Notes under the pieces: generated by a model
Seen by the model: the letters and a program-made list of their open reading frames with translations, nothing else
Told to the model about the DNA's origin: nothing
Databases searched by the model: none
Shown here: piece after piece, positions 11,576 through 24,757 of the stretch
Layout: each line of letters starts with the position of its first letter
How positions within the stretch are numbered: position 1 is the first letter of the stretch
Program-made: the position numbers and the translations under genes
Assembly (NCBI GenBank): GCA_017525245.1
Contig: JAFXTE010000069.1
Location: 1 to 37,547, forward strand
From: Bacteroidales bacterium
GTDB lineage: Bacteria; Bacteroidota; Bacteroidia; Bacteroidales; WCHB1-69
Length of the DNA: 37,547 bases
Direction of reading: 5' to 3'

Positions 11576-12319
11576 ATGCTACGTCAGCTGCTCTCCACGA
11601 TCGGCGAATATCTCATCTTTCTCCGCAAAGTATTCTCCAAACCAGCCAAATGGTCCGTTTTTCTGAAGAAATGGGTGTTTGAGATGGACGCCATGGGCAT
11701 CGGCTCCATGCTGATTGTCTGCATCGTGTCGTTGGCCATGGGCAGCGTCATCACGTTGCAGACTGCCCTGCAAATCGAGAGCGGCTGGATTCCTTCTTGG
11801 ACAGTGGGTTTCGTCGCCCGCACCTCCATCGTGATGGAACTCTGTCCCACCATCATCAGTCTGTTGTTGGTGGGAAACCTCGGTTCGCGCATCACAGCAG
11901 AAATCGGCAGTATGCGGGTTACGGAACAAATTGATGCTTTGGAAGTTATGGGCATCAATCCGGCATCGCACTTAGTGTTGCCGAAGGTAACGGCTTCCAT
12001 CATCGTGAATCCAATCCTTTGCGTGTTCAGCATTGCATTCGCCCTTTTTGGCGGATTCTTGACCGTTTGGCTTACCAACTGTATCTCCACATACGACTTT
12101 ATGGACGGCCTTACTTACTGTTTTCGCGTCTATGACGTGGTCTATGCGCTGACGAAAACCTGCATCTTCGCCTTCATCATGTCCACCGTCGCCTCCTTCT
12201 ACGGCTACCGCATCGAAGGCGGTGCCTTGGAACTCGGCAAGGCCAGCACGCAAGGGATTGTAGTGTCGAGCTTCATCATCTTGGTGTTGAATGTGGTGAT
12301 TACGGATATAATGTTGTAA
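11576..12319 (+). CDS. mlaE: MlaE-type ABC transporter permease
   Basis: A 247-residue integral membrane protein of the MlaE/YrbE family, the permease of the phospholipid transport system that maintains outer-membrane asymmetry. It carries the family signature EIGSMRVTEQIDALEVMGI near residues 110-128, plus about five hydrophobic segments. The ATG follows the aspS stop TAA directly, so the two genes are co-transcribed. In Bacteroidetes the ATPase gene mlaF normally follows mlaE; here it lies 8 kb downstream at 20375, beyond the accessory block. No MCE-domain mlaD is visible. Confidence 0.92.
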   Translation: MLRQLLSTIGEYLIFLRKVFSKPAKWSVFLKKWVFEMDAMGIGSMLIVCIVSLAMGSVITLQTALQIESGWIPSWTVGFVARTSIVMELCPTIISLLLVGNLGSRITAEIGSMRVTEQIDALEVMGINPASHLVLPKVTASIIVNPILCVFSIAFALFGGFLTVWLTNCISTYDFMDGLTYCFRVYDVVYALTKTCIFAFIMSTVASFYGYRIEGGALELGKASTQGIVVSSFIILVLNVVITDIML

Positions 12320-12349: not shown

Positions 12350-13450
12350 CTATAGGCGGATAGAGTTCTCCTCCTCTTTCTCCGTTGTCGGAGTGTTGAC
12401 TATGTGGTAGCCACCAAATTTCTTGCTGCCGGAGTACTGGATTTTCCCCCTCTTCTTGAGTTCGTACAGACAACGATCCATTGTGGTTTTTGGATAGGAA
12501 GTGTGGGAAATGAGCTCCGTGGACCGGCAACCAGGATGCTCACTGATGTAGCTAAGCACAACATCGAGCTTCTTTTTTGGCGGAACAGACAGGTGTTTTT
12601 TACCCTTTTCCACTTTACCATCCAATCGTTTGTCATTCAAAACCTCTTGGCTCGCACGCAAGTATTCCTCAATGGCAGCGGGGGCATGAGGATATTTTTG
12701 GATGTCCAGATCGAATGTGAGGGGTTTTTCCATCCAAGGCACGGCCTTCATGACCACAGCCTCTCCATCACACAAGACGATATGTTGGACTGGGACAACG
12801 AAGGAGGAAGATATTCGGACAAATTCTTTATTATCAAGAAGTTGCATCAAATACTTAAGAGAGCAATAGCGGGTGTATTTAACACCGTCCACCGTATAGA
12901 TTTGCGTTTCATTCCCATTCTTCTTGCAATAGAAGATGTCATCAAGGAGTATATGCTGACAGTTGTTGTCCCCGTCACACACATCAATCATTCTGGCTTG
13001 CTGATAAACAACCCTGATCTCCGTTTCCAAAGACTGCTGCAGTTGTTTCCTTTCCGCTAACAAATAAGGGAAGAAGTTGAAGGCGAGATTGCGGCTAAAG
13101 ACTAAGAACAAGAACTTGAAAAAATAATTGAACATCCCAACTTCATTGATTCGAAATGCTTGACTTTGCGAAATGAACGGGTAGCCAACGGCCAGCTCAA
13201 TGCATCCTGCCACAAGACAGGCAGCAACAACCGAAAACCAATATAGCGATGTGCGGCCACGATACAATCTCTGATAAAAGACAAGATAGTTGGCGTACAG
13301 CGTGGCCAGCAGCAGCAATCCGGAAAACACCTCCTTGGCCGTACTTCCTAAATAGGGCCGAAGGTATGCGTTTCGTGAGAAAAACCACAGCAGGGCCGTG
13401 CAAGGCAGGATGTTCAGTAAAATAGTTGCAATTGTGTTCCGTCGTTTCAT
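12350..13450 (-). CDS. Membrane-anchored LytTR regulator with C-terminal winged helix
   Basis: A 366-residue protein. Four hydrophobic segments lie at about 7-25, 38-60, 68-90 and 105-131. A coiled linker (RKQLQQSLETEIRVVYQQ) follows. Residues 160-240 match a LytTR DNA-binding domain (LLDDIFYCKKNGNETQIYT, then FVRISSSFVVPVQHIV). Residues about 294-350 look like a winged helix (STELISHTSYPKTTMDRCLYE, GSKKFGGYH). There is no histidine-kinase domain and no receiver domain, so signal input must come through the membrane part or a partner. The gene is divergent from the block of exported proteins and shares a 290-base promoter region with it, so it probably controls that block. A TATCTTTG element lies 24 bases ahead of its ATG. 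Membrane LytTR proteins are known; the added winged helix is unusual. Confidence 0.75.
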   Translation of the reverse strand: MKRRNTIATILLNILPCTALLWFFSRNAYLRPYLGSTAKEVFSGLLLLATLYANYLVFYQRLYRGRTSLYWFSVVAACLVAGCIELAVGYPFISQSQAFRINEVGMFNYFFKFLFLVFSRNLAFNFFPYLLAERKQLQQSLETEIRVVYQQARMIDVCDGDNNCQHILLDDIFYCKKNGNETQIYTVDGVKYTRYCSLKYLMQLLDNKEFVRISSSFVVPVQHIVLCDGEAVVMKAVPWMEKPLTFDLDIQKYPHAPAAIEEYLRASQEVLNDKRLDGKVEKGKKHLSVPPKKKLDVVLSYISEHPGCRSTELISHTSYPKTTMDRCLYELKKRGKIQYSGSKKFGGYHIVNTPTTEKEEENSIRL

Positions 13451-13474
13451 AACATTGTTGTTTGATTACGGTGA

Positions 13475-13482
13475 CAAAGATA
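13475..13482 (-). promoter_or_regulatory. -7 element TATCTTTG (LytTR regulator)
   Basis: The minus strand reads TATCTTTG, a full TAnnTTTG match, 24 bases upstream of the regulator ATG at 13450. Confidence 0.55.
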
Positions 13483-13514
13483 ATCTTTTTATCCTTCCAT
13501 TATTCCACCAAAGA

Positions 13515-13527
13515 TTTTTAATGCCCC
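13515..13527 (-). promoter_or_regulatory. Candidate operator motif GGGGCATTAAAAA
   Basis: The minus strand reads GGGGCATTAAAAA, matching 13662-13674 on the plus strand at 10 of 13 positions. It lies about 33 bases upstream of the regulator -7 element. It overlaps a hairpin whose arms are TTAATGCC (13518-13525) and GGCATTAA (13543-13550). Confidence 0.45.
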
Positions 13528-13641
13528 AAAACATCGCTTTGAGGCATTAAATCACTATATTGTTGTAAAATACTTATTATCAGGCATTTACGCTATACGA
13601 AAACTGTTTTCAAAATAGCATAGTGTCATATTATTGAGCAT

Positions 13642-13674
13642 GGGGAGCATATTTTTGGCGTGGGGCATAAAATT
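13642..13674 (+). promoter_or_regulatory. Candidate LytTR operator: two direct motif copies
   Basis: GGGGAGCATATTTTT (from 13642) and GGGGCATAAAATT (from 13662) are spaced exactly 20 bases apart, about two helical turns, and end 16 bases before the -7 element of the divergent block. LytTR proteins generally bind paired direct repeats about two turns apart, so this is a plausible site. Confidence 0.45.
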
Positions 13675-13690
13675 GATTGGTGTTTGATAG

Positions 13691-13698
13691 TATTTTTG
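13691..13698 (+). promoter_or_regulatory. -7 element TATTTTTG for the exported-protein block
   Basis: TATTTTTG followed by CCGCC, 42 bases before the first gene of the block at 13741. It is the only clear full-consensus promoter found ahead of the seven genes. Confidence 0.6.
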
Positions 13699-13740
13699 CC
13701 GCCGAAAAAAGTAACATATTAACACCAAAATCAAAATGCA

Positions 13741-14238
13741 ATGAAAAAAGTATTGACATTGACACTGCTCGCGGCCACGTTGCTTGGCGCATGCGAGAAA
13801 GAAAGCAAAATGGCAGGGGCAAACCAGCCCTCTCCTAACAGAGTTGTGGTCATCCCTTCGGATGGTAAAACAGCATCCGCCACAATACTCGTATCACAAA
13901 TCGGACTTGATGGAAAAACCTGTAACGGATGTGTTTTGGATGGTGGGGATTACATCCATGTGGACTGTATGGGAGAAGGACACTATTGTGCATTTGCCGC
14001 ATCTGTCCAGTTGCAACAGGTCGGCACCGCCGTCACCGCCACGACCACGGACACGTTCGGTCTGACCTCGGAGGATTTCTTCCTCATGCCAAGCCGCTCC
14101 TTGGATTATGAAGATGAGAAAGGGAGCCACATCTTCCTGAACATTCCCGGGCAGATGGTCTATCGGAACACCGCCACGCAGCAGTTTACGTTTACGGGGC
14201 TATTCTTCAGCAACAGGGCAGCTTACAGTAACAATTAA
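13741..14238 (+). CDS. Small lipoprotein of unknown function
   Basis: A 165-residue protein with a lipoprotein signal and lipobox LLGAC (Cys18). The mature part begins with a charged linker (EKESKMAG) and has a central Cys-containing segment (GKTCNGCVLDGGDYIHVDCMG) with a C-x2-C and further Cys residues, then a Thr-rich strand region. No family was recognised. The Cys cluster could form disulfides or bind a ligand. It is the first gene of the same-strand block and lies closest to the candidate operator. A gap of 83 bases separates it from the next gene. Confidence 0.7.
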   Translation: MKKVLTLTLLAATLLGACEKESKMAGANQPSPNRVVVIPSDGKTASATILVSQIGLDGKTCNGCVLDGGDYIHVDCMGEGHYCAFAASVQLQQVGTAVTATTTDTFGLTSEDFFLMPSRSLDYEDEKGSHIFLNIPGQMVYRNTATQQFTFTGLFFSNRAAYSNN

Positions 14239-14321
14239 GAATTGATTGCAAAAAACCTGTCTGCACGGCTTTTGGGTTAATTTTAGAAATTATTTTATTC
14301 ACATATTAAATAGCAAAGAGT

Positions 14322-15305
14322 ATGAAAAAAATGTTTAGTTTATGTGTCTGTGTAGTGGCACTTGTTTTAGTTTCATGTGACAAAGAAAAGGTTTATAACC
14401 CTCAGGATTCTGCGTTAAGAGCTGGAAACAAAAGTGTCAGAACTTTTGAAAGCATGGATGATTTGTATCGGGAAATCAATCTTTTGAATGATATGGACTT
14501 CAATGAAATCGTTTCATACGAAGACATGAATGGATACCAATCATTCGGGAGGCTTGCTTACCAAGCGGTGGAGACAATTCTTCAAGACTCCTCAAATCCA
14601 GACCTTATGTTACGTCAACTCAACAACTATCAACTTTATCTGCAAACAATCACAGAGGGCACAACTCAATATGTTGACATTCGGTACGACAACACTCCGT
14701 TCACTTTTATCATGAACAAAGACAGAATTTTTATTGTGGCCGATAGTGTTTATAAAGTATTTGACACCTGTATAGTAAAGTGTGGAATTAGTCAAAAAGA
14801 AAGTCTGATTTTTATGGACGAGAATGACTTAAGAGAGATTGAAGACACCCCAGAGTTTCATATTTGTTCGCTAAATCCCCCCTTTGCCATCACTCAAAGT
14901 AAATACAGTAATTACGGTGATCATATACAGCAAGACGCAGTAAACGACAAAGAGAAAGTGAAAACCGATCTTTACAGTATCCCTGTGGATAGCAGAATGG
15001 TGAATGGCAGGTTATGCTTCACTGCTTATATGTATCTAAAAATAAAAGGATTTCGAAAATTTGCCGGAACTTTCTGGCCAGTGCAACGGACTTTGTCCGA
15101 CAACATTGCGGGCGGGATGGTTGTCCACACAACCGAATACTGGAATTCGGTGTCAGGCGGATCGGAAGGATTCCAACGGACAGAAAACATCATCGCAAAA
15201 CCACTTCAAATGCCTGAATACATCACTTCTCCAGCCATTTACATAAGTTATGCTGTCGGCTATGGACGTATTCCCGCAGTTGCAGCTGTCTATAATTTCC
15301 AGTAA
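14322..15305 (+). CDS. Lipoprotein of unknown function (327 residues)
   Basis: A lipoprotein signal (MFSLCVCVVALVLVSC, lipobox LVSC, Cys19) is followed by a mature region with no recognised domain. Its N-terminal third is acidic and helical (FESMDDLYREINLLNDMDFN), the middle has alternating strands, and the C-terminus ends in an aromatic strand (AAVYNFQ). It may resemble Bacteroidetes DUF4848-type lipoproteins, but this could not be confirmed. It is 12 bases upstream of the first of two barrel genes, so it is probably part of the same transcript and may be exposed at the cell surface. Confidence 0.7.
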   Translation: MKKMFSLCVCVVALVLVSCDKEKVYNPQDSALRAGNKSVRTFESMDDLYREINLLNDMDFNEIVSYEDMNGYQSFGRLAYQAVETILQDSSNPDLMLRQLNNYQLYLQTITEGTTQYVDIRYDNTPFTFIMNKDRIFIVADSVYKVFDTCIVKCGISQKESLIFMDENDLREIEDTPEFHICSLNPPFAITQSKYSNYGDHIQQDAVNDKEKVKTDLYSIPVDSRMVNGRLCFTAYMYLKIKGFRKFAGTFWPVQRTLSDNIAGGMVVHTTEYWNSVSGGSEGFQRTENIIAKPLQMPEYITSPAIYISYAVGYGRIPAVAAVYNFQ

Positions 15306-15317
15306 TACACTCTTCTT

Positions 15318-15968
15318 ATGAAACACATTCTGACATTTGTTTTGTGCTTGGTTTTTCCGACAATTTTCTGTTTTTCCGAAAATATCTGTGACACGGGATA
15401 TTCTGTGAAAAACCGTTGGGTGATTAAGGCAAGTGTTTCCCCGTATAAGAATTGGGATTCGGATCAGCCGAGTATTCACATTGGTTATTATCTTGATCTT
15501 GTACATTTGCCTAAGGCAAGCTTTGAAGTGGAGGCAACCTATGCGGTGGGCAAGTATCTTGAAATAGGTATTACAAGTGGATTTATTGACGGAAAATATA
15601 TTCAACCAACAGACGGATTGGGTGGTGTCACCAAACAGATGATTGCCCCGACTTTCGGTGGTTCCCTGCATTTTCATCTGCTCCCTCTGTTTGTCAAGGC
15701 ACCCGTCTGTAGATGGGATCTCTATTTGTTGGCTAAATATAACGGATGCGTTCTTCCTAAAACAGAGTTTGACGTTGAGGGATTCTCGTTAAAAAAATAC
15801 AGACATGTTTACGGTGTTGGGCTTGGCATCTCCTATTTTATCAAAAACATAGCCGGTTTTTTCTCCGAATTCTCTGTTGGACAATTCTCCTATTTTACTG
15901 CATTTGTGAACAGTAATACTAATTTTCGCGTGGGTATCGCATTCAAAATCAAGAAAAAGCAGTTATGA
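15318..15968 (+). CDS. Predicted outer-membrane beta-barrel protein A
   Basis: A 216-residue protein with a cleavable signal (ILTFVLCLVFPTIFCFS). The rest is made of amphipathic strands with glycine/aromatic alternation (SIHIGYYLDLVHLP, EIGITSGFIDGKY, HVYGVGLGISYFI) and ends with strand FRVGIAFKIKKKQL. The size fits an 8- to 10-strand barrel. No family was recognised. The stop overlaps the start of the next gene (ATGA at 15965), so the two barrels are probably translated together. Confidence 0.65.
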   Translation: MKHILTFVLCLVFPTIFCFSENICDTGYSVKNRWVIKASVSPYKNWDSDQPSIHIGYYLDLVHLPKASFEVEATYAVGKYLEIGITSGFIDGKYIQPTDGLGGVTKQMIAPTFGGSLHFHLLPLFVKAPVCRWDLYLLAKYNGCVLPKTEFDVEGFSLKKYRHVYGVGLGISYFIKNIAGFFSEFSVGQFSYFTAFVNSNTNFRVGIAFKIKKKQL

Positions 15969-16741
15969 AACACGTTATTTTCCCCACACTTTGTGTAATA
16001 ATGTTGTGCCTTGAAGTAAAAGCACAACCTGTCCAATTGATGGAGAACAAAGGCTATGCTTTCCCGTTACATTCCTTTGGGGTTTCATTTCAGGAATGTG
16101 TTCTTTTTCCGACAAAAATCAAGAACGAAATGGGTTCATTGAAACCTAATCAAGAGATATGTAACAATCATGAGCTTGCAGTTCAATATTCTTGTCTATT
16201 CCGTAATCATTTTGGCTTTTCTTTGGAACTTTTGTTCGGCACTTACCGACGATTAGCCACCTTTCAATTAAGTGCCTTTGGTGCAGAAGACATAGATGCA
16301 GAGGCGGGGGATTTCTATTTTGGATTTCGTCCGAAAATAGCCTATTTTAGACCTGTTCACAAAAATGTTTCCCTGCAAGCGGAATTCGGATTGACTTTTA
16401 TGCCGTTTATTCATGATCCGTCTTGTTTTATAGACAGATTTACTTGGATTAATCGTGCCAATCAGGAAATCGTCTCAATGAAAATAAATGGGATGTCATA
16501 TTTTTGTCCAGATGCTACAATTTCCCTGACCTGCCTCTTTCACGGCAACAAACGTCCTAAAAACCATTTCTCGGTGGGCATTTATGCAAACTTGTCGTTC
16601 GTTACCCGTTTGGAGATGACATACGACACTTTCAATTATGGAAATCTGCCTTTTGAGGCACGTTCTTATGGAATCTGTCGTTGGAATTCGAGTAACGTAG
16701 GTGTCAGTGTTGGCTATCGTTTTATGGGACTTCAACCATAA
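15965..16741 (+). CDS. Predicted outer-membrane beta-barrel protein B
   Basis: A 258-residue protein with a signal peptide (VIFPTLCVIMLCLEVKAQ) and a body of strand-like segments (LAVQYSCLFRNHFGFSLELL, GDFYFGFRPKIAYF, VSLQAEFGLTFMPF). It ends in SVGYRFMGLQP, close to an outer-membrane barrel terminus. It overlaps barrel A by four bases. The two are similar in kind but not obviously duplicates. The role is unknown; a pore or anchor for the exported fibre-like protein or protease encoded downstream is only a guess from position. Confidence 0.65.
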   Translation: MKHVIFPTLCVIMLCLEVKAQPVQLMENKGYAFPLHSFGVSFQECVLFPTKIKNEMGSLKPNQEICNNHELAVQYSCLFRNHFGFSLELLFGTYRRLATFQLSAFGAEDIDAEAGDFYFGFRPKIAYFRPVHKNVSLQAEFGLTFMPFIHDPSCFIDRFTWINRANQEIVSMKINGMSYFCPDATISLTCLFHGNKRPKNHFSVGIYANLSFVTRLEMTYDTFNYGNLPFEARSYGICRWNSSNVGVSVGYRFMGLQP

Positions 16742-16790
16742 TTAATCAAAAGTGCATTTCCAAAACAATATTCACTAAAATGTCAAACAA

Positions 16791-16801
16791 ATGAAAAAAA
16801 A
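16791..16801 (+). other. A8 tract causing frameshift at the signal peptide
   Basis: ATG is followed by eight A's. Read as written, this start gives 30 codons and stops at 16881. With seven A's the same ATG gives MKKITLTAAVILMTIMGAKA, a textbook signal peptide in frame with the gene below. The tract is therefore a phase-variation candidate, a slippage site, or a sequencing error. Confidence 0.8.
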
Positions 16802-16824
16802 TCACATTAACAGCGGCCGTCATT

Positions 16825-17583
16825 TTGATGACCATCATGGGAGCCAAAGCCCAACTTCAAACAGCATGGTTGACTTCTGGTAATAGCGCAACAAGCCACT
16901 TTTTCCTCGGTTCTACCGACTCTTCTCCAATCAAGTTCAGAACCAACAACACCGAAAGAATGTGTATCAGTGCTTCTGGCAACGTGGGCATCGGTACCAC
17001 CTTGCCGCAACAGATGTTGCACATTGTAAGCGGTAATGTTTTGATTTCCAAAACATCCACAAATCGTGCTCCAGGCTCTACCAATGGTTCGCTATTTTTC
17101 GGCAGTGTAATCAATTCTACTAATCAATTTGGAGAATGGGGTATAGAATATCTGAGTGAGGATGATTTGGAACACGGTCTCAACTTTTGGAAACCTGCAA
17201 CAGCAATGAGCGGTGGGGGTAACTTTTTTCTGTTCCTAAAAGACAATGGCAACATCGGCATCGGCACCAACAACCCGCAGGCGAAATTAGCGGTGAACGG
17301 TGAAATCCTGGCCAAGAGCGTGCGGGTGAACACAAGCAACACCTACTGGCCGGACTATGTGTTCGGGAGCGACTATAGTTTGATGAGTCTGAAAGAGTTG
17401 GAGCAGTATGTGAACACACACAGACATTTGCCCAATGTCCCTTCTGCAAAAGAAATAGAAGAGAAAGGGGATGTGGATCTCGGCGCGATGAACGCCATCC
17501 TGCTGGAAAAGGTTGAGGAACTGACCCGCTATGTCATTGATTTGCAGAACCAGATTGACGAACTGAAAAATGGAAAGGAGTAG
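16825..17583 (+). CDS. Fibre-like exported protein with C-terminal coiled coil (5' frameshift)
   Basis: The open frame starts at a TTG (16825) inside what should be a signal peptide. The natural start is the ATG at 16791, one base out of frame because of an A8 run. The mature part has two motifs of the NVGIGTT-P / NIGIGTNNP kind found in beta-roll fibres, then a conserved C-terminal module (WPDYVFGSDYSLMSLKELE, HRHLPNVPSAKEIEEKG) and a coiled coil (AILLEKVEELTRYVIDLQNQ). This C-terminal module is widespread in Bacteroidetes proteins that are often labelled tail fibre, but no phage genes lie nearby. It is probably a trimeric surface fibre. It ends 4 bases before the protease gene. Confidence 0.7.
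   Translation: MMTIMGAKAQLQTAWLTSGNSATSHFFLGSTDSSPIKFRTNNTERMCISASGNVGIGTTLPQQMLHIVSGNVLISKTSTNRAPGSTNGSLFFGSVINSTNQFGEWGIEYLSEDDLEHGLNFWKPATAMSGGGNFFLFLKDNGNIGIGTNNPQAKLAVNGEILAKSVRVNTSNTYWPDYVFGSDYSLMSLKELEQYVNTHRHLPNVPSAKEIEEKGDVDLGAMNAILLEKVEELTRYVIDLQNQIDELKNGKE
17575..17580 (+). promoter_or_regulatory. Shine-Dalgarno AAGGAG deciding the protease start
   Basis: AAGGAG lies 7 bases before the ATG at 17588 and overlaps the end of the upstream gene. It favours 17588 over the ATG at 17570. Such strong sites are uncommon in Bacteroidetes. Confidence 0.6.
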
Positions 17584-17587
17584 GAAG

Positions 17588-19789
17588 ATGAAAAGATACG
17601 TGTATATTTGTTGTCTGTGTTTGTCTTTTTTGTCTGCCAGAGGACAGATTAGTCAAGGAGGGAAACCATACAGCTTTAGCTCTACTTTAAGAGATTATAA
17701 TTCAGACACTATCCGCTTAAATGAGAATCTTATTTCCTTTGAAATGCCTAAAATCAGAGAATCTGTTTTTAACTCAATACTGCAAAACAATATGCTAAAT
17801 AATGAATACCAATTCGCATACGATTTCCACACATCAATTAATGTTAAGGAGCAATCCACTATTGACTCTATTGATATTGGAATAATTTACAGGTTGGTTG
17901 TGAAATCCGAAGGAGCAAAGTCCCTAAACCTTATTTTTGACGAGTTTTCAATTCCGAGAGGTGCTAAGCTTTTTATTTATAGCAAAGATAAAAAAAACAT
18001 CATAGGTGCTTTTACAAGTAACAATAACAATGGTTCCAGGAAACTACCTACAGTTCCTGTTTTTGGAGATGAAATTGTTGTTGAATATTTTGAACCATAT
18101 TTTTCGGAATTTGCAGGTTCATTGAAAATCATTCGGGTAAATCACGATTTTATGGGAATTTGCTTCGATCAAGTGGAAGAAATGGATAAGGATGAATTTG
18201 AAGATTGTTATGTTGACATTAACTGTAGTCCAGAAGGAGATTCTTGGCAAGAGGAGAAAAGAGCCGTTTGCAGGGTTATTCGCAAAGGGACTGCAACTTT
18301 TTCAGGCAGTTTGGTTAACAACACAAATATGGATGGTATCCCGTATTTTCTTACTGCGAATCACTGCATCTCAACCCAACAAATGGCAGATGTGTCTGTT
18401 TTTATTTTTAATTACGAGAGACCAGGTTGCAAAACAGGACAGGCCTCATCCGGTCAGTCCATTTCTTCAGGAACATTAAGGGCAACGAATAGCCAATCGG
18501 ATTTTTCACTGATAGAATTGTCTCATAGACCATTGTCAACCTGGAATCCCTATTATGCCGGTTGGGACAGACGGGAGGAACAAAGTGCTGGTGGAGTATG
18601 TATTCATCATCCGTCTGGCAAGCCTAAAAAAATATCTACGTATAATATTGCGCTTGTCAATACAACTTGTACGAATCTGCCTCAAGACAATTATTACCGA
18701 GTAACTAATTGGATACCCACAACAAATGGTTACAGTATAGCAGAGGAAGGCAGCTCGGGGGCTCCATTATTCAACAACAGCCATAAAATCATCGGACAAT
18801 TGTACGGGATGTGTTCGTGGTTTGCTTCTTTTTGCGATAATCCTTCGCAAAATAAAATTGATTTTGGTAAATTTTTAGTGTCTTGGAATAATGGTGAAAC
18901 CGCAGAAACTCGTCTGAAAGATTGGTTGGATCCGATTGAAAGTAATGTCTTTCAGTTGGAGGGATCGGAAGTGTGTCCCCAAGAATTGACAAATAACCTG
19001 ACACTCACGCATACGGTAAACAGTGGAGTTGTTGAAATCAAACAGGCAACACAAAACATTTCTTCTTCTTGTTTTATTTCAGAAGGCGCAAACGTTTCTT
19101 ATAAAGCAGGGCAGAATATTAATTTGGTTTCAGGCTTTCATGCAGAACAAGGAAGTCGTTTCTATGCTACGACAGGAAATGAACCCATCTGTGTTCCTGG
19201 CTGTTATCCGATGACCCTTTCTTTAGACAGTCAAGTTTTTTCAAACGGAGGCAATATCTGTTTTACGCAAACCAATGCCACTTCATACCACTTACGATTA
19301 GTCAATTATTTGGGACAAGAGGTTTATCAGTATAGTGGAGCTACAAGCAGTTTCCAGTGTTGCATTCCGATACTTACTGTTAATCTAGCAGTTGGAAGAT
19401 ACATTGCTACGATTACCCTCATAAACGAATGTGGTGAAATGTCCGAATCATACCTCATGCTCTGCATAGGAGGAAAAGGAGAAGACTCATACGGGAATGA
19501 TTCTCTGAATTTAAGAGGTCTTTCTTCTATCCATACCGATTCTGCCTCTTTTGATTTTGACGTTTATCCAAATCCCTCGAACGGTGTTTTTCAAATAAAT
19601 GTTCAGGTAGGGACAGTTTATCCTTATTCGATTGAAATAATAACTTCTATGGGACAAACGTTATATCACATTGACAATATAAAGGAAAAAACAATCGAAA
19701 TTGCTAAAGCATGCCTACCTGTCGGATTATACTTCGTAACAATCAGAATGAATGACATTTCTAAAACAAAAAAATTGATTATTGAATAA
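17588..19789 (+). CDS. Trypsin-like serine endopeptidase with T9SS type A sorting signal
   Basis: A 733-residue exported protease. A signal peptide (YVYICCLCLSFLSARGQ) is followed by an N-terminal propeptide-like domain (to about 210) and a chymotrypsin-fold catalytic domain. The triad is visible: His259 in LTANHC, Asp305 in QSDFSLIEL and Ser390 in GSSGAP. This resembles lysyl endopeptidase-type enzymes. Strand-rich domains follow (about 465-640), and the last 75 residues form a type A T9SS signal (FDVYPNPSNGVFQINV, ending KKLIIE). It should cross the outer membrane and be released or surface-anchored. The start at 17588 is set by AAGGAG. It lies 4 bases after the fibre-like gene and 8 bases before a small lipoprotein. 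Codon use is AT-rich compared with aspS. Confidence 0.88.
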   Translation: MKRYVYICCLCLSFLSARGQISQGGKPYSFSSTLRDYNSDTIRLNENLISFEMPKIRESVFNSILQNNMLNNEYQFAYDFHTSINVKEQSTIDSIDIGIIYRLVVKSEGAKSLNLIFDEFSIPRGAKLFIYSKDKKNIIGAFTSNNNNGSRKLPTVPVFGDEIVVEYFEPYFSEFAGSLKIIRVNHDFMGICFDQVEEMDKDEFEDCYVDINCSPEGDSWQEEKRAVCRVIRKGTATFSGSLVNNTNMDGIPYFLTANHCISTQQMADVSVFIFNYERPGCKTGQASSGQSISSGTLRATNSQSDFSLIELSHRPLSTWNPYYAGWDRREEQSAGGVCIHHPSGKPKKISTYNIALVNTTCTNLPQDNYYRVTNWIPTTNGYSIAEEGSSGAPLFNNSHKIIGQLYGMCSWFASFCDNPSQNKIDFGKFLVSWNNGETAETRLKDWLDPIESNVFQLEGSEVCPQELTNNLTLTHTVNSGVVEIKQATQNISSSCFISEGANVSYKAGQNINLVSGFHAEQGSRFYATTGNEPICVPGCYPMTLSLDSQVFSNGGNICFTQTNATSYHLRLVNYLGQEVYQYSGATSSFQCCIPILTVNLAVGRYIATITLINECGEMSESYLMLCIGGKGEDSYGNDSLNLRGLSSIHTDSASFDFDVYPNPSNGVFQINVQVGTVYPYSIEIITSMGQTLYHIDNIKEKTIEIAKACLPVGLYFVTIRMNDISKTKKLIIE

Positions 19790-19797
19790 ACAAAAAA

Positions 19798-20220
19798 ATG
19801 AAAAAGATTATTTTTGGAACAATCATACTGGCATTTGTCTTTATGACGAGTTGCGATAGAGAACAAAATACAAATTTTATCCAATATAATTGGAAGCTCC
19901 AATCCGTGTCAGAAAATGGCATAACCCATGCTATACATTGGTCAGAAGCAGATTTATGTATTGAAGATGCCTATACGCTAATATTCATTAATGATACAAT
20001 TTTCCAATTGAACACAGGTGTCAACAAAGCTATGGGAATATATCATCTTTCCGAAGCGAATTTGGAAATAAGCCAGTATAGGGAAATGACATCTGTTCAC
20101 AGTGAGGATAAAATAGACCAATTGCTTCCCAAATGTATACCGACAGTCCATACCTATAAAATAAAGGGCAATTCTTTGATATTGATAGGTGATGGTTGTA
20201 GAATCCGATTGACAAGATAA
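19798..20220 (+). CDS. Small lipoprotein, possibly META-like
   Basis: A 140-residue protein with lipobox FMTSC (Cys19) after a short hydrophobic signal. The mature part starts with NWKLQSVSENG and ends GNSLILIGDGCRIRLTR, a layout like small META-type or lipocalin-like lipoproteins in Bacteroidetes, but the match is weak. Two Cys residues (in LLPKCIP and GDGCRI) could pair. It is the last gene of the block and lies 8 bases after the protease. An inhibitor or chaperone of the protease is conceivable but unsupported. Confidence 0.65.
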   Translation: MKKIIFGTIILAFVFMTSCDREQNTNFIQYNWKLQSVSENGITHAIHWSEADLCIEDAYTLIFINDTIFQLNTGVNKAMGIYHLSEANLEISQYREMTSVHSEDKIDQLLPKCIPTVHTYKIKGNSLILIGDGCRIRLTR

Positions 20221-20303: not shown

Positions 20304-20311
20304 TACTTTTG
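20304..20311 (+). promoter_or_regulatory. -7 element TACTTTTG for mlaF
   Basis: TACTTTTG followed by CAGCC, with TTTG at 20283-20286 and a 17-base spacer, giving a complete -33/-7 pair. It means mlaF is transcribed on its own and does not depend on the aspS-mlaE unit. Confidence 0.65.
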
Positions 20312-20374: not shown

Positions 20375-21127
20375 ATGATCGAGGTCAACAACGTTTCCAA
20401 GTATTTCGGCGAAAAGCAGGTGCTTTTCGGCATCGACACGCAGTTCGAGGAGGGCAAGGTAAACCTCATCATCGGGCGGTCCGGGTCGGGCAAGACGGTG
20501 CTGATGAAGTGCTTGGTGGGGCTGCACACGCCCGAGGAGGGCAAAGTTCTCTACAGCGGCCGGGAGTTCCACAACCTGCCGGAAAAGGACAAACTGCTGC
20601 TCCGCAAGGAAATGGGGATGGTGTTCCAGGGTTCCGCGCTGTTCGACTCCATGACTATTGAGGAGAATGTCACTTTCCCATTAGACATGTTCACCGAACA
20701 GAGCGATTCCGAGAAGCACGACCGCGCCAATTTCTGTTTGGAATGCGTTGATTTGGAAGGGGTTAACAAACTTTATCCGGCGGAGTTGAGCGGCGGTATG
20801 AAGAAACGTGCCGCTATAGCACGCGCCCTCGCCTGCAATCCCCGCTACCTCTTTTTCGACGAGCCAAACTCCGGCCTCGACCCCAAAACCTCCCTGCTCA
20901 TCGACGAACTCATCACCAAGATCACCCACGAGTTCAACACCACGACAGTCGTCAACACCCACGACCTCAACTCCATCATCACCATCGGCGAGACCATCTC
21001 GTTCATCTACCAAGGCCACCTCGCCTGGCGCGGCAGCAGCGACAACATCCTCACCTCCGACAACCAGACGCTCAACGATTTCATCTACGCGCAGCCGCTG
21101 ACGCAGCGGTTGCGGAAAACGTTGTGA
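20375..21127 (+). CDS. mlaF: MlaF-type ABC transporter ATPase
   Basis: A 250-residue nucleotide-binding protein that powers MlaE-type phospholipid transport. Walker A is GRSGSGKT (34-41), the Q-loop is at Gln85, the signature is LSGGMKKR (138-145), and Walker B is YLFFDEP (158-164) followed by the family hallmark NSGLDP. A C-terminal helix (NDFIYAQPLTQRLRKTL) matches the regulatory tail of MlaF homologues. The permease is encoded 8 kb upstream. The gene has its own promoter. Its base composition resembles mlaE and aspS more than the AT-rich genes in between, which supports an original mlaE-mlaF pair. Confidence 0.92.
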   Translation: MIEVNNVSKYFGEKQVLFGIDTQFEEGKVNLIIGRSGSGKTVLMKCLVGLHTPEEGKVLYSGREFHNLPEKDKLLLRKEMGMVFQGSALFDSMTIEENVTFPLDMFTEQSDSEKHDRANFCLECVDLEGVNKLYPAELSGGMKKRAAIARALACNPRYLFFDEPNSGLDPKTSLLIDELITKITHEFNTTTVVNTHDLNSIITIGETISFIYQGHLAWRGSSDNILTSDNQTLNDFIYAQPLTQRLRKTL

Positions 21128-21167: not shown

Positions 21168-24100
21168 TTAGTCGCGGAGGCAGCGGACAGACAGTCCCCA
21201 ATCTGTAGGACACGAACCCTGAATCACATTCGATGCAGAACAGTATATTTGAAAATCCTTGGCATAGTAGCTGGTTGATCCTGCTGAAAAACTCCAGAAG
21301 ACGGCGTTAAAGCCTGGTGTTCCAAGGTAATTACTTACAGGAACTGCGCTAAAACCTGAAAGATTGTTCACGAGTTGGTTGTTGCCAGGGGTACAGTAAT
21401 CAAAGGTAGACTGCCAACCGCTCTGTGAGGCCATTGCCTTAGCGATATAATTGCTATTGCCTCCACAACAATAATCGGAGACTGTACCTAAGTAGTTGAT
21501 CAACTGAATCCACTCTGCATTGCTTGGCAAGTGCCACCCGTCGGGACAGATACCCTGCACCCCGGACGGGTTAGCTTCCGTTGAGAATGCACCGTACATC
21601 ACAGCAGGCCAGTTATACAGATATCCTCGATCCTCCAATGGTGTTGAACTCCCATTGTCATAATAGTAAGGATTGGTACTGCTCATATTGCTGTTCCCGG
21701 CAGGGATAGGTTCACCATCCGAATAGTACGTGGAACGTAAGTTTTCCCGCATCCAACATTGGTTACCAATTTGTATGGTATTGTAGGAATTACCTTCAAA
21801 ATCAAACACCACAGGGGCATCGGGACAAGGATGGTTATTCGGGGTAAGAGGCGCTGTGGTGAACGCCATCGTCATTCCATAGGTAGTACCGATACTATTT
21901 GTAACGTATGCCCGGACATAGTACGTGGTACCGGCGTTGAGCCCTGTAATGCTGCTCGTGAACGTCCCCAAACCCGTACTGTCAGAAGTATGAGCTCCCA
22001 CTATGGTCGGGTTCGATGATGTTCCCCAACACACCCCTCGAGCTATAATCGTGTCACCGCCGTCCGTTGTGACCACACCGCCGCAAGTGGCAGACGTATC
22101 CGTTATATTGCTTACCGAATCGGTAGTGACCGTGGGAAGGAAGACCGTATGGCCGCTTCCTCCAAGCGAATCGCGGAGACATCGAACCGAGAGACCATCG
22201 GCTATATCACAGCCATCGTAAAAAAACACATCATTTCTGTAGTTAAATAGTTGACAACTCAATACATTACCATAATATTTCGTAGTAGAGCAAAAAAAGG
22301 CATGCATACCCTGATCGTCAAAATGCCCATACGCATCTTTCCACCAACCAGCAGGAACAGCACTGAACCCCGTAGCATTATTCGTACTTTGGCTGTTGCC
22401 AACAGTACAGAGTTCTGAAAAATAATGCCATCCGGTCGTAGAAGATAATGCCTTGGCAACAGACCACGAGTAATCTCCACAAACGAACAGATTCTGGCTG
22501 CTCACATAATTCCTGAGCTGTGTCCACTCCGCAATACTCGGCACGTGCCAACCGATAGGACAGACGCCTTGCACGCCGGAAGGATTGGCATTGGTGGCAG
22601 AGGCTCCATGCATGGCCGTATTCCAATTGTATAAATAACCGCGTTCCACAAACGGAATATTTGAACTACTGTAATCAAAATAGCCGTTAGGAGAAACAGC
22701 CGACCCATTCGAAAAATAAGTCACCCTCATATTTTCCCGCATCCAGCACTGGGCGCCAATCTGAACCGTGTTGTACACATTGCCTTCTATATCTGTCACT
22801 GTAGGAATGCCGGGACAAGGTGCAGCTATGGGAACGGAATCGGTAGGTAGCATGGAAAACACCACCTCATTTCCGTATGCTATCCCTTCTTCATTGGTGG
22901 CGTATGCTCGCACATAGTAGGTGGTATTGGCCTGAAGAGCTATGAGGTTGCTTGTGAACGAACCAAGGCTATCGCCATTGAAGGTATGTGGATCCTCAAC
23001 CGTAGGGTTCGGTGAGGTACTCCAGCATACACCCCGCGTGAGAATCGGCGCACCGCCATCCGATACCACATCACCGCCACAAGTAACCGTGGTTATCAAG
23101 GTATGTGTCACCATCACAGAATCGGTGGTGACCGTGGGCGGCGTTATGACAGAAAAAGTGTCGTCACCTCGGATGCAACGTACTGAATAACAATCACACT
23201 TGTTGCCGTATGCCCAATCAACAGTCGAACTACAGAATGGAAAGAAATGCGACTTTGCACTCCTTTTGGAATATTGTGTGGCCGTCCAGAAATAGGCAGA
23301 GCAGAAGGTGGGAAACACTGTGGGGAAAGTGTTGTACGTAAAAGTACCCGCAGGCATTGCACTAAATCCCGTAGCATTGTTTGTGTTCAGGTCGTGTCCT
23401 GCCGAACATTCGTCAGAGAAATATGCCCACATAGTCGTAGATGCGAGCGCCTTGGCAATGTGATCATCAAAATAGCTATCACACCAGTAATCCGGTTGTG
23501 ACATCACATAAGACAGTAACTGCCACCACTCGTCTTCCGTAGGGAGATGCCAACCTGCCGGACAAATGCCACGTCTGTAACCGTTGTAATTCACAGAAAA
23601 AGCATGGTCGGCACTGTCGTCCACACTGGTCTCCCCATATGCTATGTTGAACGTGTCCATCATGGCATTCCAATTGTACAACAAACCAAAACTGCTGTCC
23701 ACGGTTATAGAATCATAATGCCTATATCTTTTTGCCATCTTGCCTGTGTAGGTGCTATTATAGGTTGTATCCACAAGGTAGGTACCCGTACTCGGAGAGG
23801 TCACACAACGCATATTTTCCCGCATCCAACACTGATTGCCAATCATAACCGTCTGATAGACATTGCCCTCGTGATCCGTCACGGTCGGCGTGGCAGGGCA
23901 GGGTTGAGCATCCGTGACTTCCATCGAGGAAGAAAAAGAAAGTGTAATCAGCTCTGAGACTTCCTGCACCTGTACGATATGCTCGCTTTCGACCTCCATG
24001 CCATCAAGGGTGGCAAAGCCCACATATTCCATTTGGTCACCTGCCTCAAAAGGATTGTCTGTACCATCTCTGTGACTGCTTTTGAGTTGTAGAACTGAAG

Positions 24101-24620
24101 GGTTGATGGCAATGGAGTTATTGCCACCGTTAGTTCGATTCACCATCTTCACCGAAGAGGTCATCCCGTTTTGCCTCGCTGTCAGGAAATAGATGCCTGC
24201 CGAAGTGAGGGTGATACGGATTCCGTGGATGCCTGGCTGTAGGGGAGAATAATGATTCACCCCTACAATGCGTCCGGTGATATCGGTGATCTCTACTACC
24301 ACGTCTCCCAGTTCTGCCACCTGCAGGTTCGCAAACGTGGTGCCGTCAAATGGGTTGGGGGTGTTTTGCGACAACCGCAGAGATGTTTCAGGAAACGTCT
24401 CTACATCCCCGACACCCGTCTCGTCCGTCATCGTCAGTACCGTATCATTGGGCCAAGTCAACGTATCCTGCCAGCCTTTGGTAAGGTTACTGACAACCAC
24501 CCGTTGCAGCGGCACATACAAGTCATTGATATCGCGCCCCGTAAACGTCACACTCACCGTCTGCGCCGAAACCACCGCAAACAGCAGCATTATGGTTAGG
24601 AAAGTAAATGTCTTTTTCAT
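21168..24620 (-). CDS. Exported protein with three FISUMP domains and an N-terminal T9SS-like module
   Basis: 1150 residues from the ATG at 24620, chosen because MKKTFTFLTIMLLFAVVSAQ is a clean signal peptide; the frame extends upstream to 24737 without sense. Residues 83-160 (RLSQNTPNPFDGTT, then VVVEITDITGRIVG, AGIYFLTARQNGMTSSVKM) look like a T9SS type A signal but sit near the N-terminus. Three Fibrobacter succinogenes major paralogous (FISUMP) domains follow, each with EGNVY-T, IG-QCWMRENMR, LYNW, CP-GWH-P and a closing SVRC-R. They are separated by two Fn3-like linkers (VTTDSV, GGVV-DGG, RGVCW-TS-NPT, YYVRAY-TN). There is no C-terminal sorting signal. FISUMP domains are related to C-type lectin-like folds and probably bind surface ligands. 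Confidence 0.85.
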   Translation of the reverse strand: MKKTFTFLTIMLLFAVVSAQTVSVTFTGRDINDLYVPLQRVVVSNLTKGWQDTLTWPNDTVLTMTDETGVGDVETFPETSLRLSQNTPNPFDGTTFANLQVAELGDVVVEITDITGRIVGVNHYSPLQPGIHGIRITLTSAGIYFLTARQNGMTSSVKMVNRTNGGNNSIAINPSVLQLKSSHRDGTDNPFEAGDQMEYVGFATLDGMEVESEHIVQVQEVSELITLSFSSSMEVTDAQPCPATPTVTDHEGNVYQTVMIGNQCWMRENMRCVTSPSTGTYLVDTTYNSTYTGKMAKRYRHYDSITVDSSFGLLYNWNAMMDTFNIAYGETSVDDSADHAFSVNYNGYRRGICPAGWHLPTEDEWWQLLSYVMSQPDYWCDSYFDDHIAKALASTTMWAYFSDECSAGHDLNTNNATGFSAMPAGTFTYNTFPTVFPTFCSAYFWTATQYSKRSAKSHFFPFCSSTVDWAYGNKCDCYSVRCIRGDDTFSVITPPTVTTDSVMVTHTLITTVTCGGDVVSDGGAPILTRGVCWSTSPNPTVEDPHTFNGDSLGSFTSNLIALQANTTYYVRAYATNEEGIAYGNEVVFSMLPTDSVPIAAPCPGIPTVTDIEGNVYNTVQIGAQCWMRENMRVTYFSNGSAVSPNGYFDYSSSNIPFVERGYLYNWNTAMHGASATNANPSGVQGVCPIGWHVPSIAEWTQLRNYVSSQNLFVCGDYSWSVAKALSSTTGWHYFSELCTVGNSQSTNNATGFSAVPAGWWKDAYGHFDDQGMHAFFCSTTKYYGNVLSCQLFNYRNDVFFYDGCDIADGLSVRCLRDSLGGSGHTVFLPTVTTDSVSNITDTSATCGGVVTTDGGDTIIARGVCWGTSSNPTIVGAHTSDSTGLGTFTSSITGLNAGTTYYVRAYVTNSIGTTYGMTMAFTTAPLTPNNHPCPDAPVVFDFEGNSYNTIQIGNQCWMRENLRSTYYSDGEPIPAGNSNMSSTNPYYYDNGSSTPLEDRGYLYNWPAVMYGAFSTEANPSGVQGICPDGWHLPSNAEWIQLINYLGTVSDYCCGGNSNYIAKAMASQSGWQSTFDYCTPGNNQLVNNLSGFSAVPVSNYLGTPGFNAVFWSFSAGSTSYYAKDFQIYCSASNVIQGSCPTDWGLSVRCLRD
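24377..24404 (+). repeat. 28-base palindrome inside FISUMP gene
   Basis: Arms GCAGAGATG and CGTCTCTAC around TTTCAGGAAA. It is in frame and encodes residues 73-82, between the first domain and the T9SS-like module. Confidence 0.7.
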
Positions 24621-24643
24621 ATCGGTAATCATAATAACGATGG

Positions 24644-24651
24644 CAAAAATA
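24644..24651 (-). promoter_or_regulatory. -7 element TATTTTTG (FISUMP gene)
   Basis: The minus strand reads TATTTTTG followed by CCATCG, 23 bases ahead of the ATG at 24620, which supports that start. Confidence 0.55.
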
Positions 24652-24673
24652 AAAAAAAAAGCGGAATTTCCAT

Positions 24674-24697
24674 CGAGACGCAAAATTTTGCGTCTCG
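24674..24697. repeat. 24-base perfect palindrome between divergent promoters
   Basis: CGAGACGCAAAA is followed directly by its exact reverse complement. It is a member of the GAGACG palindrome family with core CAAAATTTTG. It lies between the divergent -7 elements at 24644 and 24714. Its TTTG (24687-24690) is 23 bases from the plus-strand -7 element and could act as its -33 element. Confidence 0.75.
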
Positions 24698-24713
24698 ACA
24701 ATGGTAATTTATG

Positions 24714-24721
24714 TACTTTTG
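24714..24721 (+). promoter_or_regulatory. -7 element TACTTTTG (cvpA)
   Basis: TACTTTTG followed by CCGCC. A leader of about 95 bases separates it from the ATG at 24822; most of the leader is a heptamer array. Confidence 0.6.
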
Positions 24722-24757
24722 CCGCCAAATTAAACATCTAAAAAACCTTAACCTCCT

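Follow-up and report, generated by a model that had tools for sequence, protein, structure and literature searches.

A divergent LytTR regulator and lipoprotein as the probable constant head of a modular locus with exported cargo in Bacteroidales

The 37,547-nucleotide stretch of DNA analysed here (the window; contig JAFXTE010000069.1 of the Bacteroidales bacterium assembly GCA_017525245.1, genome G000 in our set) carries a block of eight genes in which a membrane-anchored LytTR regulator, REG (12350..13450, minus strand), faces the lipoprotein gene LP1 (13741..14238, plus strand) and six further plus-strand genes. This block is probably one copy of a modular locus in which a constant sensory head, REG and LP1, is joined to exchangeable exported cargo. 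The reading is built on sequence comparisons, which brought out the recurrence of the head, the turnover of its cargo, the insertion of the block at the mla genes, near-identical module DNA in a divergent genome, direct repeats before LP1 and the homology of REG to sensor kinases. A single conserved eight-gene module was rejected, only REG and LP1 being constant across stretches. The original prediction, made by a model from the sequence alone, thus survives as a regulated surface module with its own regulator, since REG and LP1 are conserved and mostly exported genes follow them, and not as a fixed unit of a regulator plus seven genes. Likewise, it proposed to check whether the gene order recurs with the LytTR gene in Bacteroidales genomes; it does so for REG and LP1, and the cargo differs from copy to copy.

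Recurrence and conservation of the head

LP1 was searched for in 148 genomes with a profile (our profiles were trained on the family they detect) and was present in 51, all of the same family: 33 of the 40 genomes of the genus, the own genome included, and 18 others. The search listed 87 regions, of which 80 were fetched, two of the seven left out overlapping fetched stretches; these neighbourhoods, the window and four stretches from its own genome make up the 85 stretches analysed. The genomes are draft metagenome-assembled genomes (MAGs), and many stretches or cargo regions are cut by contig ends. REG lies divergently beside LP1 in 80 of 89 LP1 open reading frames (ORFs), fragments included; the LP1 ORF of L063, displaced by an overlapping ORF in gene picking, is outside this count. 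Among the nine ORFs lacking a divergent REG, three lie less than 400 bp from a contig end, one is a fused relic (L102), one has REG in convergent orientation and one has a REG-like kinase gene on the same strand. The genome of the window holds five LP1 copies by profile, one of them cut by a contig end, and a DNA search with REG-LP1 also gave further copies. A pattern scan of contigs confirmed two LP1 loci, in the Bacteroidales MAGs RGIG2805 from goat omasum and RGIG7800 from water buffalo reticulum.

REG had been predicted to be a membrane LytTR regulator, and this was confirmed by a Pfam LytTR match (E 4.3e-8) and by hydrophobic N-terminal segments, of which a simple hydropathy rule gives three in the window copy and, as the commonest number in the family, four (30 of 67). 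The LytTR match was found in 19 of the 20 REG proteins among 25 proteins scanned, the other five being outgroup kinases. The C-terminus of REG carries a winged-helix signature that falls below the Pfam cut-off. In 82 LP1 sequences, G55, C61, C64, H73, C76, G80 and C83 are near-invariant, as is the stretch LNIPxQ..RD..T.QF, and LP1 is thus marked by a conserved Cys/His motif. The LP1 profile gave no good match to sequences in the PDB (best E 0.5).

Two heads are arranged differently. In L012 (8757-10525) REG and LP1 are convergent, although the flanks match those of L084, where the two are divergent. In L163 (G000:C39, around 16337) there is an apparent relic head, with the repeat-bearing promoter kept and a gene for a 180-aa exported-type protein after it; by eye its REG is seemingly reduced to its ends, and tblastn found no REG remnant.

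Cargo behind LP1

In 73 of 76 loci the gene after LP1 shares its strand, and by our own heuristic 134 of 174 cargo genes are signal-peptide-like versus 20 of 95 upstream-flank genes, the loci not being independent of each other. A recurring cargo type was recognised in 59 of 81 loci. These figures bear directly on the alternative that the head is an independent sensory system regulating only itself, and that the genes after LP1 are unrelated surface genes at permissive sites. Such independence could explain why heads L012, L084 and L108 and the outgroup loci L175, L176, L182, L183 and L185 have no recognised cargo, after LP1 and after LP1 and a kinase respectively, and why the mlaE-mlaF gaps of relatives hold other small inserts. 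We consider it unlikely in view of the same-strand arrangement and the strong excess of exported genes, the recurrence of the same cargo types directly after LP1 behind divergent heads, and a head on contig C17 of this genome (see below) that keeps REG and exported cargo without LP1.

The cargo families, each named from one representative, are of several classes. The most frequent label is the S8 set at 22 loci, which includes loci with only the companion families c4 or c10; the S8 subtilase family itself is in 21 of the 85 stretches. It is followed by an SpvB/Rhs giant (10 loci), a second and a third Rhs type (4 and 2), clusters for ribosomally synthesised and post-translationally modified peptides (RiPPs) of the grasp-with-spasm (4) and radical-SAM (3) kinds, GH16 (4 loci; the family is in 5 of 85 stretches), C10 protease (2 loci; 3 of 85 stretches), the window type (2) and two uncharacterised types (4 and 2). 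Grasp-with-spasm genes also lie further on in L066, which was kept unlabelled. The presence of S8, C10 and GH16 families, together with the ruminant forestomach origin of the two relatives mentioned above, could suggest a nutrient-harvest system in which proteases and GH16 are digestive and the head senses a protein or glycan substrate. This is distinctly unlikely, as Rhs and RiPP cargo behind the same head fit foraging badly and none of the eight proteins of the window matches SusC or SusD (Pfam).

The relation of cargo to head was examined on a head tree of 69 rows (81 LP1 and 73 REG sequences, 70 loci with both, one REG too short), using 55 labelled rows and 300 shuffles. The cargo labels require 26 changes compared to 31.3 +/- 1.2 when shuffled, with one shuffle in 300 as low, and when the RiPP rows are removed 23 changes compared to 24.6 +/- 1.1, with 50 as low. 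Cargo thus follows the head only loosely, with the RiPP heads as the clear exception.

The lipoprotein LP2 and the small exported proteins BB1 and BB2 of the window (cargo sub-set A) follow LP1 in one other of the 85 stretches, L062 (G021), with 37-47% protein identity and behind a head placed elsewhere on the head tree. The fibre-like protein that comes next belongs to a family found in 8 of 85 stretches, and in L080 and L103 a fibre of this family is accompanied by a C10 protease with type IX secretion system (T9SS) sorting instead of the trypsin-like protease of the window. Because LP2-BB1-BB2 recur in L062 and fibre-type sets in L080 and L103, the window cargo looks composite, apparently made of LP2-BB1-BB2 followed by fibre, T9SS serine protease and META lipoprotein.

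Insertion at mla and exchange of modules

The block sits exactly between mlaE (11576..12319, plus strand) and mlaF (20375..21127, plus strand), the latter encoding an MlaF-type ABC ATPase. Of 90 genomes searched, 82 had both genes at the limits used, and in 80 of them, with coordinates read by eye, the two lie side by side, the largest gap being about 1 kb (G049). The remaining two are the genome of the window and G039, where the genes are on different contigs. Compared to the empty site in G013 (mlaE 97% and mlaF 91.5% identical DNA), the window has an insertion of 8,055 bp, homology stopping with the final base of mlaE (12319) and starting again with the first base of mlaF (20375). A different head, with fibre and C10 protease as its cargo, starts 28 bp from mlaE in G039; the separate contig that carries mlaF in this genome starts inside an S8-family gene, and an 830-aa gene precedes mlaF. 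Small genes are found in this gap as well. In L133 (G020) a 590-bp gap holds a small gene whose product we take to be four-helix-bundle-like, and G003 (L135) has a shorter related stretch; the mlaE-mlaF gap therefore takes other small inserts too.

Other sites suggest that blocks replace one another. At site c36 the flanks of G013 (L050) and G009 (L087) are 95.5% and 96.6% identical, while the blocks measure 12,615 versus 4,612 bp and only short REG/LP1 stretches of them align. The C43 head of G000 is 96% identical to a G020 head at another site, and the C43 flank matches at 88.5% a G020 site that carries a different head. Over 10.6-12.1 kb, the radical-SAM RiPP modules of G000, G014 and G008 share 96.9-99.6% identity. 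The MlaE proteins are 78% identical between G000 and G014 and 97% between G000 and G008, and therefore only the comparison with G014 speaks for transfer of the RiPP module. A tape-measure cluster (c15) adjoins this module in all three genomes, and PHROGs matches confirmed the tape measure and, on the G014 contig, also an integrase. In the sister prophage of G029, where other genes occupy the same slot, a head maturation protease was confirmed in this way. Furthermore, in two loci with SpvB/Rhs giant cargo the gene immediately upstream of REG is a phage integrase by Pfam (L088 11953-13074 and L125 441-1562). The relic L102 encodes a protein that by eye resembles a C10 protease at its start and continues into the final part of an LP1, with further cargo next; pieces of LP1 or REG are also present in several of 12 additional stretches. 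Taken together, we think it rather likely that recombination at fixed chromosomal sites exchanges both cargo and whole modules, and that prophages carry them. The 3' end of LP1 was considered as a recombination seam and set aside, since fourfold-site identity is 0.37-0.50 in the 3' half and 0.28-0.29 in the middle, and reaches 0.34-0.52 near the 5' end too.

The LP1 promoter

A Bacteroidetes-type promoter is predicted before LP1 (13668..13698, plus strand), composed of TAAA (13668-13671), 19 bp and TATTTTTG (13691-13698). It is preceded by two 11-bp direct repeats (13626-13636 and 13647-13657, plus strand) 10 bp apart, a probable LytTR operator, which gives a geometry of 11-10-11-10 bp ahead of TAAA-19 bp-TATTTTTG. 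Pairs of TCAyATTT spaced 20-23 bp, with one mismatch allowed in each, occur in 23 of 83 upstream regions versus a shuffle mean of 0.45. Table 3 of PMC6193735 gives for two Bacteroides operons resembling LytTR Regulatory Systems (LRS) 11-bp repeats that are 11 bp apart and 11 bp before a 19-bp-spaced promoter, and their LytTR regulators also have transmembrane (TM) segments.

The REG-LP1 interval also contains an inverted repeat of 16 pairs (13517-13551) near the REG start, possibly a second operator.

Sensor kinases of the outgroup and a proposed mechanism

LP1 also occurs in 7 of 393 Bacteroidales genomes, that of G208 being only a 41-residue fragment. Seven outgroup loci were examined, located in two genomes from a different Bacteroidales family and in three genomes that belong to another genus of the present one. 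In all seven, LP1 stands with a His_kinase protein and a Response_reg-LytTR protein, in one of them with a 1,061-aa gene between LP1 and the kinase. These are histidine kinases with four TM segments, and the profile of the REG N-terminus matches all seven at 77-112 bits, so that REG and these LytS-like kinases share a sensor domain. This domain is present in 9 of 386 Bacteroidales genomes, including all seven with LP1, and two genomes with the sensor domain have no LP1 beside the kinase and LytTR response regulator. The REG of the window has neither a His_kinase match nor a receiver domain (Pfam). The one-component REG may thus have arisen from a kinase, a direction that follows from distribution and not from a rooted tree, and LP1 would be the extracytoplasmic partner of the sensor domain.

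The kinase association also bears on the role of LP1, which could instead be a shared accessory or immunity lipoprotein, a display anchor or self-protection, with REG merely its regulator. LP1 does stand at the front of the cargo and carries a lipoprotein signal, and several cargos resemble tools of antagonism (Rhs, RiPP). A histidine kinase with LP1 in every outgroup locus examined is hard to reconcile with this role, as are a single LP1 family before chemically unrelated cargos and the head that has cargo without LP1, and we find it very unlikely.

In the modular reading, LP1, as a lipoprotein outside the cytoplasm, or something it binds, would signal to the sensor domain of REG. REG, in which the sensor domain shared with LytS-like four-TM kinases is fused directly to a LytTR DNA-binding domain, would bind the pair of direct repeats ahead of the LP1 promoter and, as an activator, turn on LP1 and the co-directional cargo, presumably in one transcript. 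The cargo may be a tool kit, antagonistic or digestive, aimed at neighbours or surroundings; here it comprises LP2-BB1-BB2 with the fibre, the T9SS serine protease and the META lipoprotein.

Several observations weigh against the modular reading and its extensions. No recurring cargo was recognised in 22 of 81 loci, and genes that we take to be housekeeping follow some of the uncargoed heads (L012, L084, L108, L117, L120). When the RiPP rows are included, cargo is partly tied to the head, as the single shuffle in 300 indicates. The LP1 of the window has Leu at position 56, where 98% of the 82 sequences have His, and structure models of LP1 and REG were unusable (predicted local distance difference test, pLDDT, 34.5 and 44). 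The sixth head of G000 (C17, L195 8561-19000) consists of REG and large T9SS-type cargo with LP1 absent: REG is divergent from two large ORFs, one of them for a T9SS fibronectin-type protein of 1,659 aa, and LP1 is therefore not always required close by. Only the 23 loci have the TCAyATTT pairs, the other 60 showing a weak excess at 21 bp. With respect to carriage by phages, 5 of 10 phage-flank proteins have no PHROG match, no LP1 relative was confirmed in viral contigs among 41 pattern matches, and tblastn found none in phage or plasmid records. Finally, the match between LP1 and sensor domain distributions depends on profiles trained on LP1-linked sequences and on different E-value limits, and the seven outgroup loci represent two genera only.

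Relation to known systems

The regulator-lipoprotein head has its closest parallels among LytTR systems. LRS control bacteriocin genes in streptococci, as stated in PMC6193735, and the Bacteroides LRS-like operons in the same paper share with the REG locus a LytTR regulator whose TM segments precede its DNA-binding domain, as well as a pair of 11-bp direct repeats, spaced by about two turns of the helix, immediately ahead of a 19-bp-spaced promoter. In contrast to LRS, the partner of REG is a divergently transcribed lipoprotein, and REG itself carries the membrane part with no separate inhibitor. REG furthermore has the C-terminal winged-helix signature, the locus has exchangeable cargo, and the proteins of the window include no NfeD/DUF2154 membrane protein (Pfam). 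Systems of the LytS/LytR type (His_kinase PF06580 with Response_reg-LytTR) have an N-terminal sensor domain homologous to that of REG, and the outgroup LP1 lies beside such a pair; they differ in that REG has no kinase match or receiver and unites sensor and DNA-binding domain in one protein.

Rhs and T9SS polymorphic toxin systems combine a constant with a variable part and are known for T9SS export and displaced fragments. Constant and variable parts, T9SS export, Rhs cargo and displaced fragments are also seen here. However, what stays constant here is a regulator-lipoprotein pair in place of a delivery domain, and what varies are whole gene sets of unrelated classes.

A literature search gave no description of this kind of locus among the matches listed, most subscription journals not being covered. 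LytTR membrane regulation is a known kind, and the head-plus-cargo organisation has a fair chance of forming a separate one. More tentatively, the head may be a regulatory socket, a new kind of locus in which a conserved, multiplied and mobile head puts unrelated exported classes under one input. This head would consist of a lipoprotein and a kinase-type sensor that lost its kinase part and was joined to LytTR. A strain could then change its surface arsenal through the cargo (T9SS proteases, Rhs giants, RiPP clusters, fibres, glycoside hydrolases) with the switch unchanged. The head would also provide a handle on dozens of unannotated surface or antagonism gene sets in ruminant-gut Bacteroidales, and effector cargo, RiPP clusters and T9SS proteases included, could be found by locating REG-LP1. 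Within one order, the sensor domain is found next to one and the same lipoprotein family both in a two-component kinase and in a one-component membrane regulator, the latter multiplied and coupled to exchangeable cargo.

Genes of the window

Coordinates and strands of all eight ORFs agreed with our ORF check. After LP1 follow, on the plus strand, LP2 (14322..15305), BB1 (15318..15968), BB2 (15965..16741), the fibre-like FIB (16825..17583), the serine protease SPR (17570..19789) and the META-domain lipoprotein LP3 (19798..20220). The N-termini of LP1, LP2 and LP3 are of lipoprotein type (by eye and heuristic) and the genes of the putative barrel proteins BB1 and BB2 overlap by 4 bases, both as predicted. 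SPR was correctly recognised as a T9SS serine protease; its 739 aa contain Trypsin_2 and a T9SS type A sorting domain, matched by Por_Secre_tail (E 1.2e-10) and by TIGR04183. Its processing of the fibre may be proposed from their local arrangement. Most members had been thought to lack a known family, which holds for LP1, LP2, BB1, BB2 and the fibre, none of which reaches a Pfam cut-off, and not for LP3, which is a META protein (Pfam).

REG and LP1 are separated by 290 bases (divergent), the distances from LP1 onwards are 83, 12, -4, 83, -14 and 8, and LP3 lies 154 bases from mlaF. The predicted gaps of -4 to 49 bases from 14322 onward were not recovered, since the real set includes 83 and -14; the figure of 49 presupposes that the fibre starts at ATG 16791, which is out of frame with the fibre ORF opening at TTG 16825. 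Within 16785-16830 this ATG precedes an eight-A tract, and a slippage switch, an assembly error or a broken gene is possible. As a consequence of the frame, the claim that every product carries an export signal fails for the fibre ORF as it stands.

Two further classifications of the block were rejected: a SusC/SusD polysaccharide-utilisation locus, on the Pfam result given above, and a known anti-phage defence system, as 0 of 8 proteins match PADLOC models at E 1e-3. A terminator scan predicted 5 terminators versus 6.5 in shuffles. Before mlaF lies a promoter-like element, TACTTTTG (20304..20311, plus strand), identified by motif only. After mlaF, the opposite strand encodes an exported-type protein of 1,189 aa with repeats (21168-24737), which presumably resemble the FISUMP domain.

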